A stretch of DNA of 64,000 nt from Verrucomicrobiia bacterium (GTDB taxonomy: Bacteria; Zixibacteria; MSB-5A5; DSPP01): assembly GCA_035574275.1 (NCBI GenBank), contig DATLYY010000022.1, positions 62,001 to 126,000 of the forward strand, in the 5' to 3' direction. A program made the position numbers and the translations under genes. A model generated the notes under the pieces. That model was not told the origin of the DNA. It was given only the letters and a program-made list of their open reading frames with translations, and made no database searches. This document shows, piece after piece, positions 6,825 to 56,064 of this stretch. Within the stretch, counting starts at the first letter, position 1, and every line of letters begins with the position of its first letter.

Positions 6825-6869
6825 TCCAACCGGGTTTCTAAAGCCATTTCAAAAAGCTATATTCCCATT

Positions 6870-6963
6870 GGAAGCGGATGGGATCTGGTGGTCCTCGCGG
6901 ACTTCAAATCCGCTGGTGCAGGCCAAGCCGGCGCGGTGGGTTCGATTCCCACCCCTTCCGCCA
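6870..6963 (+). tRNA. selC: tRNA-Sec (anticodon UCA)
   Basis: A 94-nt tRNA with the selenocysteine hallmarks. The anticodon stem is GCGGA/TCCGC (6897-6901 and 6909-6913) around loop CTTCAAA with anticodon TCA. The long variable arm is GTGC-A-GGC / GCC-G-GCGC (6916-6934). The T arm is GTGGG-TTCGATT-CCCAC (6936-6952), followed by G73 and an encoded CCA. The 5' strand GGAAGCGG against the 3' strand leaves a C·C opposition at the sixth pair and looks one pair short of the usual 8+5 acceptor/T stack. The gene sits directly before selA and selB, which confirms identity. Confidence 0.95.
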
Positions 6964-55464: not shown

Positions 55465-55477
55465 GGAAATAAAAAAA

Positions 55478-55550
55478 GCGGGAGACGGGACTCGAACCCG
55501 CGACCAACAGCTTGGAAGGCTGTGACTCTAACCAGCTGAGTTACTCCCGC
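55478..55550 (-). tRNA. tRNA-Gly (anticodon UCC)
   Basis: A 73-nt cloverleaf on the minus strand. The acceptor is GCGGGAG/CTCCCGC, the D arm has CTCAGCTGGTTAGAG, and the anticodon arm is ACAGC-CTTCCAA-GCTGT with TCC at 34-36. The T arm is GCGGG-TTCGAGT-CCCGT. CCA is not encoded. Its 5' half is overlapped by the end of the GIY-YIG open frame. Confidence 0.96.
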
Positions 55551-55797
55551 AGAACTTTTCTACCAGGGCTTTCTTGAAGGTGCTTCCCTCTAAGCTCTTT
55601 AAGAACCGCTCCTTCTTAATGGCTTCGCCGCGGCTCGAAAATTCTTCAGCCCAGACCAAATCAAACGGCATCCTGCGCCGTGTGGATTTTACCGCACCAA
55701 GATTATGCAGTTCCAAACGTCTGGCAAGATTCTTTGTCTGTCCGACGTACAGTTTTCCATCTATCCGGCTGCGTAAAATATATAAGTAGTAACCCAT
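55528..55797 (-). CDS. Small GIY-YIG (UPF0213/URI-type) nuclease
   Basis: An 89-residue single-domain nuclease: YYLYILRSRIDGKLYVGQTKNLARRLELHN carries the GIY-YIG pair (as YLY...YVG), the catalytic Arg, and later Glu in EAIKKERFLKSLEG. ATG 55797 is the family-like start; the frame runs open upstream through a tRNA-Gly fragment. The stop codon lies inside the D-loop of the intact tRNA-Gly, so the last eight residues (CGSNSAG region) are written by tRNA sequence. Related stand-alone GIY-YIG genes have no firm function; some GIY-YIG enzymes are homing nucleases. Confidence 0.85.
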   Translation of the reverse strand: MGYYLYILRSRIDGKLYVGQTKNLARRLELHNLGAVKSTRRRMPFDLVWAEEFSSRGEAIKKERFLKSLEGSTFKKALVEKFCGSNSAG

Positions 55798-55817
55798 TTG
55801 CCAACTGGACGCCTCTT

Positions 55818-55869
55818 GAACCCGCGACCAACCCGTACGGGTGACTCTAACCAGCTGAGTTACTCCCGC
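55818..55869 (-). pseudogene. Broken tRNA-Gly copy with the anticodon arm replaced by a palindrome
   Basis: Read on the minus strand, the first 29 nt are identical to the intact tRNA-Gly (through the D arm to GTCAC). The 14-nt anticodon region is then replaced by CCGTACGGG, followed by 14 identical nt (TTGGTCGCGGGTTC). After that the match stops, so the T-arm and acceptor 3' strands are missing. It lies 20 nt before the GIY-YIG start codon and cannot form a working tRNA. Confidence 0.85.
55832..55841. repeat. 10-bp palindrome CCCGTACGGG, one of three copies
   Basis: This exact 10-mer occurs at 37555-37564 (core of a terminator), 52289-52298 (one base after the cold-shock stop codon) and 55832-55841 (in place of a tRNA anticodon arm). 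All three copies are non-coding. Confidence 0.6.
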
Positions 55870-55981: not shown

Positions 55982-56064
55982 TGGAGAGGGGAGGATTCGA
56001 ACCTCCGTAGGCGTAAGCCGGCAGATTTACAGTCTGCTCCCGTTGGCCGCTTGGGTACCTCTCC
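55982..56064 (-). tRNA. tRNA-Tyr (anticodon GUA)
   Basis: An 83-nt class II tRNA on the minus strand: acceptor GGAGAGG/CCTCTCC with A73, anticodon loop CTGTAAA with GTA, a long variable arm, and T loop TTCGAAT. CCA is not encoded. Confidence 0.96.

Follow-up and report, generated by a model that had tools for sequence, protein, structure and literature searches.

A putative tRNA-parasitic mobile element in bacteria, pairing a minimal GIY-YIG nuclease with hairpin-bearing tRNA copies

Introduction

tRNA genes are used by selfish DNA such as group I introns, often at the anticodon loop. Group I introns with homing endonucleases have been described in bacterial tRNA genes (PMC3984707). The closest experimental parallel to the locus presented here is phage SegB, a GIY-YIG enzyme encoded beside tRNA-Tyr, which cuts tRNA-containing DNA and yields 718-bp tRNA-segB tandem repeats through microhomology between the 5' end of the tRNA and the 3' end of segB (PMC13096335). 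In RAYT/REP systems, a nuclease gene is flanked by cognate, co-evolving palindromes with compensatory changes (PMC2817692, PMC3116915). In CPR bacteria, rRNA genes contain GIY-YIG-encoding insertions which are neither group I nor group II introns (PMC11270868). SLX1 is a structure-specific nuclease. Both UPF0213 and SLX1 nucleases are known as single cellular proteins and, to our knowledge, no tie of either to tRNA genes or palindromes has been reported.

An earlier note, made from sequence alone, described a GIY-YIG gene lodged between an intact and a broken tRNA-Gly within a 64,000-nt stretch of DNA (hereafter the window, meaning the whole stretch that was analysed) and suggested that it did not belong to any defined element type. 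In keeping with the latter claim, no description of tRNA-linked bacterial GIY-YIG elements was found in the open-access literature searched, which did not include preprints, and this absence is not proof.

Results

Layout of the tRNA-Gly locus

The window comes from a 2.5-Mb genome, the closest named relatives of which are Candidatus Zixiibacteriota. On the minus strand, the order at the locus is tRNA-Tyr(GTA), an altered tRNA-Gly copy (F), the nuclease gene (G) and the intact tRNA-Gly(TCC) (T) (Table 1). Positions 1–29 of F and T are identical over all 29 nt. Thereafter, CCGTACGG replaces 13–15 nt of the anticodon arm, and the sequence beyond the replaced arm, GTTGGTCGCGGGTTC, is again identical to T, with the final 17 nt of tRNA-Gly missing. 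The replaced arm reads A-CCCGTACGGG-T, which is a perfect 12-nt palindrome. The alignment of F with tRNA-Gly scores 43, versus a maximum of 13 for shuffled sequences, and F begins 112 nt after tRNA-Tyr, the position where tRNA-Gly stands in element-free relatives. G starts with ATG at 55797, with an alternative in-frame TTG (55881) inside F. Its stop codon (TAG, 55530–55528) falls in the D-arm of T, and the tRNA sequence supplies the last seven codons of G, including the stop. A tRNA-Sec gene (anticodon TCA) is also present in the window (6869–6962, plus strand), and the host probably encodes selenocysteine.

Table 1. Features of the nuclease locus in the window
Feature	Positions	Strand	Support
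T, functional copy: tRNA-Gly, anticodon TCC, uninterrupted	55477..55550	-	ARAGORN; Rfam RF00005, 67.6 bits
G, 89-aa single-domain GIY-YIG nuclease gene	55528..55797	-	PF01541, E = 1.8e-17
F, 52-nt tRNA-Gly copy, hairpin replacing the anticodon arm, 3' third absent	55818..55869	-	
Hairpin module in F: ACCCGTACGGGT, perfect 12-nt palindrome	55831..55842	-	
Overlap of the G 3' end with the first 23 nt (5') of T	55528..55550	-	
Upstream same-strand neighbour, tRNA-Tyr (GTA)	55982..56064	-	ARAGORN, Rfam

ARAGORN, Rfam, Pfam and the sequence itself bear out the earlier note on the GIY-YIG gene between a broken and an intact tRNA-Gly on the minus strand; the 52-nt length of the fragment, its exact first 29 nt, the loss of its 3' third and the stop inside tRNA-Gly held as well. 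So did the replacing palindrome, with the refinement that the true palindrome has 12 nt and the arm replaced 13–15 nt. A sister species (genome G001) has the same layout with a compensatory palindrome, AGCCGTACGGCT. Because the layout is shared with this species and recurs across phyla, a chance origin is excluded. Directly upstream of F, we found no consensus sigma-70 promoter; the ORF translations inspected showed no integrase-like ORF next to the window tRNA, and an Rfam search at the locus gave no intron family match.

A minimal nuclease of the SLX1/UPF0213 type

The only Pfam match of the G product is PF01541 (63.8 bits versus the curated cut-off of 22.6). The top solved structures for a profile of 45 homologs are the UPF0213 proteins 1zg2 and 1ywl, followed by SLX1, with T4 endonuclease II, I-TevI and UvrC giving far weaker matches; the profile points to a minimal GIY-YIG fold common to UPF0213, SLX1 and G. 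The catalytic residues Y4, Y15, G17, R25 and E61 are invariant across the 45 tRNA-linked homologs. Domain score and catalytic residues thus both satisfy membership in the GIY-YIG superfamily, SLX1/UPF0213 type. Beyond the minimal nuclease fold, the protein contains no DNA-binding domain. For the only pairs close enough for measurable dS, dN/dS is 0.07–0.33, and the nuclease gene is therefore under purifying selection. Some copies carry premature stops (genomes G001, G040 and G025), which fits an element decaying in place.

Recurrence at tRNA genes across phyla

Relatives of the nuclease are present in 81 of 147 related genomes, often several in each, and the host genome itself holds three small GIY-YIG genes. 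The second of these (L001) comes after tRNA-Ser(GCT), the 3' end of which recurs after the gene as an exact 18-nt copy, CGAATCCCAGCCTCTCCG. We assembled 169 distinct loci, comprising deduplicated Zixibacteria homologs and 80 loci from named genomes spread over many phyla. There are 135 same-strand tRNAs versus 1 on the opposite strand within 300 nt of the nuclease gene, where the tRNA density is 1.39 per kb, versus 0.03–0.06 per kb beyond 1 kb. A same-strand tRNA is found within this distance at 109 of the 169 loci, so the recurrence of the tRNA linkage in related genomes, which the earlier note had proposed as a check, is confirmed. Of the 60 remaining loci, 20 have tRNA pieces no more than 350 nt away, in every case on the nuclease strand. 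About a quarter of homologs have neither a tRNA nor a tRNA fragment. Some of them belong to a distinct clade located between inverted palindromes, and others are situated at the ends of contigs. Among 92 places in named genomes of many phyla, 68 had a tRNA, in all 68 cases on the same strand. The cross-phylum search used the Gly clade alone, and the sample is consequently biased towards relatives of that clade.

The linked tRNAs include Gly, Ser, Asp, Val, Asn, Met, Ala and Thr, as well as Pro, Glu, Cys, Gln, Tyr, Phe, Arg and Lys. tRNA species tracks the nuclease tree, with 25 changes versus 45.8 after shuffling and, in a second analysis, 70 versus 103.6. Gly-linked Zixibacteria sequences (seven rows) form one group with a support of 93. 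The trees were built on about 73 columns and most of their deep forks are unresolved. Two Hadarchaeota loci (L172, L179) encode Gly-clade relatives without a nearby tRNA in the scan, which might have missed a tRNA that contains an archaeal intron. Viral contigs yielded five weak relatives, none of the three located in the follow-up being near a tRNA; this gives no indication that phages carry the element. Taken together, there is little doubt that the association between nuclease, hairpin and tRNA is real and recurring.

Hairpins in the altered tRNA copies

A copy of the same tRNA lies across G from the intact one and is near-identical to it except for hairpins; often, the T-G pair is bordered by such a copy on either side. 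Among gaps of suitable size in the altered tRNA copies (183 in total), a hairpin with at least 5 stem pairs is present in 125, versus 17.7 expected by shuffling. By site, 83 of the hairpin-bearing gaps are in the anticodon arm, 22 in the D arm and 20 in the T arm or variable region. Hairpins are thus inserted into, or replace, the anticodon, D or T arm. The 22 pure insertions are mostly at loops or loop-stem borders. In four genomes (L167, L173, L189, L200), a 30-nt double hairpin sits exactly between GGTTC and GAATCC of the T-loop, and elsewhere (L190, L171, L176) the 20-nt palindrome CCTGCCTGCCGGCAGGCAGG occupies the D-arm or anticodon loop. The layouts seen comprise F-G-T, as in the window, its mirror T-G-F and a two-sided form, which widens the single fragment-nuclease-tRNA arrangement of the earlier note. 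Common to them is a unit consisting of a nuclease gene on the tRNA strand, one intact tRNA and one or more hairpin-bearing tRNA copies.

For the Gly family, a palindrome-blind pattern (AGAGTCA, 8–12 free bases, TTGGTCGCG) run on the 147 genomes matched seven places, all seven of them palindromic. Across eight Gly-family copies, 40 of 40 cells are paired, two pairs having changed on both sides, and this count exceeds that of all slid versions. Hairpins are mostly of the TCC...GGA form, with 100 in 107 kb lying within 330 nt of G versus 16 in 203 kb at 800–1500 nt. Hairpin class requires 13 changes on the nuclease tree versus 37.0 after shuffling (0/200 shuffles). In Zixibacteria only, the numbers are 5 and 16.1, and therefore the link is not merely one of host phylum. 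For the two hairpin types tested, copy number is low (1–6 sites per genome). The earlier note spoke of a scar, which is accordingly corrected: the palindrome is not passive but a family-wide hairpin module in the anticodon, D or T arm that tracks the nuclease clade.

Some Ser-linked members (L001, 1350–1804; L099; L112; L120; L130) differ in form. Their tRNA copy consists of the last 17–21 nt only, and they have flanking inverted repeats of the CCTGAGC...GTCGAAGG type. They appear to represent an intermediate between the tRNA-hairpin and inverted-palindrome forms.

Evidence for mobility

Tandem units of G with an altered copy, nearly or fully identical to each other, occur at L079 (319 bp, two full and a third partial), L082 (322 bp) and L076 (430 bp). 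G is the sole gene in these units, and the element is very small, about 300–450 bp per unit in the arrays seen. In genome G041 (L248 and L240), three 58-bp tandem copies of a hairpin-bearing 5' part of tRNA-Met lie upstream of tRNA-Met, and repeated G-F units are found on another contig. The assembly appears to be broken inside the array, and it is conceivable that draft genomes under-count such arrays.

Loci without the element are also available. In the genus-mates G050 and G016, the empty locus consists of a promoter (TTGACA...TATAAT) followed by tRNA-Asn, whereas the occupied locus of G040 reads promoter-F-T, 37 nt of shared flank and then G-F. tRNA-Tyr and tRNA-Gly are 29–149 nt apart in five relatives lacking a nuclease at this site, versus 431 nt at the window; five is the minimum count of related genomes with the Tyr-Gly adjacency and no nuclease there.

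Hairpins are found without a nuclease as well. In the genome of L190, CCTGCCTGCCGGCAGGCAGG interrupts a tRNA-Arg(acg) copy at the equivalent D-arm site (L267), with no nuclease in the flank examined. In the genome of L167, the double hairpin is at GGTTC|GAATC of a tRNA-Ser copy from which the nuclease is absent (L273). In genome G052 (contig C53, 3632–4008; L234), tRNA-Tyr, tRNA-Gly and a hairpin-bearing tRNA-Gly copy follow one another with no nuclease between them, apparently a decayed element. Outside tRNAs, CCTGCCTGCCGGCAGGCAGG occupies precisely the loop of a terminator-like stem at L266 (around 1501) and the apex of a different palindromic repeat at L256 (around 1501). These two sites hint at insertion into stem-loop tips; just three of six extra-tRNA sites of one palindrome have the look of a loop insertion.

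The earlier note read the locus as the product of a tRNA-targeting mobile gene that duplicates the tRNA and whose frame ends on tRNA sequence. This reading is supported by near-universal same-strand tRNA proximity in this branch of the nuclease, far-side tRNA copies, tandem repeats and empty loci in congeners, with cleavage and transposition remaining inferred. The comparison with nuclease-free relatives that it proposed gave the empty tRNA-Asn loci and the closer Tyr-Gly spacing described above. Both patterns that it named as grounds for refutation do occur, namely, nucleases away from tRNAs (the separate clade between inverted palindromes) and fragments without a nuclease (G052, L267, L273). 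The nuclease-free altered copies are what decayed elements, or hairpins inserted in trans, would be expected to leave.

A tRNA-free sister clade

The third GIY-YIG gene of the host (L003; contig C22, 139740–139958) lies outside the window with no tRNA nearby and is flanked by TGTCATGCTGAGCGAAGCGAAGCATCT and AGATTCTTCGCTGCGCTCAGAATGACA. Together with L094, L122, L123, L125, L128 and L129, it forms a well-supported tRNA-free clade, the members of which are flanked by inverted palindromes, e.g., TGTCATTCCCGCG...CGCGGGAATCCAG. These palindromes resemble widespread environmental repeats, which the nuclease family may drive.

Discussion

Comparison with described systems

SegB and other free-standing GIY-YIG enzymes of T-even phages (PMC13096335; PMC2988022) are, as here, encoded by stand-alone genes beside tRNAs. 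A nuclease 3' end resembling the tRNA 5' end and tandem tRNA-nuclease repeats are likewise common to both. The absence of the stand-alone gene from related alleles, characteristic of SegB-like systems, is satisfied by the occupied locus of G040 and the empty loci of G050 and G016. On alteration of the target, a further such feature, the locus points both ways: F has lost its arm, and the intact T remains adjacent. Unlike the SegB-like systems, which sit in phage genomes, the present family is chromosomal, spans many phyla and involves many tRNA species. Hairpin-bearing tRNA copies, present in this family, are not reported in the sections of the SegB-like papers that bear on the matter, and the protein is a minimal SLX1/UPF0213-type domain, unlike the SegB-like enzymes.

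With RAYT/REP, the family shares cognate palindromes that track the nuclease and stay palindromic through compensatory change. However, RAYTs are IS200/IS605-type tyrosine transposases, whereas the present enzyme is GIY-YIG, and with PF01541 as its sole Pfam match it does not qualify as Transposase_17. REPs are inverted, dispersed and high-copy; the palindromes described here occur in small numbers within tRNA copies and are directly oriented. The requirement for a gene flanked by two inverted cognate palindromes is not fulfilled by tRNA-linked members, the hairpin-bearing tRNA copies of which have direct orientation; the tRNA-free sister clade does have inverted palindromes. Dispersed REPs were rejected on account of the low copy number (1–6 sites per genome for two hairpin types). 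The CPR insertions resemble the present family in placing GIY-YIG proteins within structured-RNA genes without an intron, but they target rRNA rather than tRNA, and the relevant sections of PMC11270868 describe no duplicated RNA gene or cognate hairpin; a relationship between the two is possible.

Group I introns interrupt the tRNA with a ribozyme, whereas here there is no ribozyme match and the functional tRNA is uninterrupted. The requirement for a self-splicing intron is thus not satisfied at the window and a group I intron was rejected (T uninterrupted, no Rfam match). Integrase-type islands rely on a tyrosine or serine integrase acting at an att site. The translations inspected showed no integrase-like ORF adjoining the tRNA, and the tandem unit contains only G; an integrase-type att duplication was rejected, there being no integrase and the copies being too long.

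Proposed element and mechanism

The best explanation, in which our confidence is moderate, is a tRNA-parasitic mobile element made of an SLX1/UPF0213-like nuclease and its cognate hairpins, cleavage and transposition being inferred. We infer, from orientation only, that the nuclease would be expressed from the tRNA promoter, whence the strict same-strand orientation. In the T-G-F layout, G would be read directly from the tRNA promoter, and the F-G-T layout would rely on a tRNA promoter region that was kept or duplicated (L044, L065, L088). Judging from its kinship with SLX1 and from the placement of the hairpins at loops, the nuclease may act on DNA stem-loops at tRNA genes, the hairpin being its cognate end or mark. 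The break would be repaired via tRNA homology with local tandem duplication, after which the host would retain one working tRNA and the element a hairpin-bearing copy. The putative benefit to the element is that a host losing the locus would risk its tRNA. Each nuclease clade would be specialised for certain tRNAs and hairpins, and would spread by horizontal transfer and degenerate where it sits. Against this, the intact T beside the element looks like an uncut target, and its escape from the adjoining nuclease is unexplained. The end nucleotides of the element are not fixed because both mirror layouts exist, and our confidence in the exact chemistry, which is inferred, is low.

A bolder reading, which we consider more doubtful than not when all its parts are taken together, is that the nuclease recognises the tips of stem-loops, where it inserts its cognate palindrome either together with its own gene or alone, that many tRNA species serve as landing sites, the tRNA being duplicated so that the host survives, and that the same enzyme family also drives some tRNA-free environmental palindromic repeats.

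Alternative explanations

The most serious alternative, which remains possible, is a free-standing homing endonuclease of the SegB kind that cuts intact tRNA genes at a sequence site and whose gene spreads by ordinary gene conversion, the hairpins being secondary, e.g., transcription-related or immunity mutations in the extra copy. It has the precedent of phage SegB, with its tRNA-Tyr neighbour and tandem tRNA + segB repeats (PMC13096335); the 3' end of G is likewise tRNA 5' sequence, tandem units occur and nuclease clades track tRNA species. However, plain homing does not predict clean hairpins at loop positions, their clade-tracking across different tRNAs or copies in trans; the intact tRNA adjoining the element would be cut, and the protein lacks a DNA-binding domain beyond the minimal nuclease fold. 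Less probable is that palindrome insertion is primary, with the nuclease moving its cognate hairpin into stem-loop loops generally (tRNA arms, terminators, palindromes) and tRNA loci being merely where insertions that duplicate the tRNA survive. The terminator-like loop of L266, the repeat apex of L256, the preference of pure insertions for loops or loop-stem borders of tRNA copies, the position of the tRNA-free sister clade between inverted palindromes, and the CPR rRNA insertions, which are non-intron, encode GIY-YIG proteins and are mostly at the top or base of stem-loops (PMC11270868), speak in its favour. Yet hairpins are low in copy number (1–6 sites per genome), only half of the six extra-tRNA sites looked like loop insertions, and the specificity of clades for tRNA species suggests that the tRNA sequence is involved more directly.

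Two further possibilities fare worse. A tRNA-directed ribonuclease, toxin-like or acting in quality control, for which the hairpin-bearing copies would serve as decoy or antidote RNAs, would be expected to be co-transcribed with the tRNA, and the copies do retain D-/T-arm sequence without the anticodon. We regard it as very improbable: tandem units, empty sites and in-place decay (stops in G001 and G040) fit mobile DNA, and DNA is what the closest characterised relatives cut. One might also invoke an ordinary UPF0213 repair-type gene that lies next to degenerate duplicates of a tRNA, or one end of an integrase-type island at a tRNA, since single-domain GIY-YIG genes are common and attachment sites are commonly found at tRNA ends. 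This can be virtually ruled out, given that the tRNA enrichment and strand bias are far beyond chance, cross-phylum recurrence contradicts it, hairpins in tRNA copies far exceed the shuffled expectation, no integrase adjoins the window copy and tandem units measure just 319–430 bp.

Implications

The recurrence of the arrangement across numerous bacterial phyla suggests that the element class is widespread and apparently undescribed. If our reading is true, it would be among the smallest autonomous mobile elements known, with one gene of about 90 codons plus hairpins, and would have been overlooked because its genes are annotated as generic GIY-YIG proteins. It would account for the recurrent hairpin-bearing tRNA pseudogenes adjoining tRNA genes, assign a function to a large set of UPF0213/SLX1-like nucleases and show how a nuclease finds its target without a separate DNA-binding domain. 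It would also hint at what mobilises some bacterial palindromic repeats. Because nuclease and hairpin are paired in many clades, the recognition rule lends itself to direct testing.
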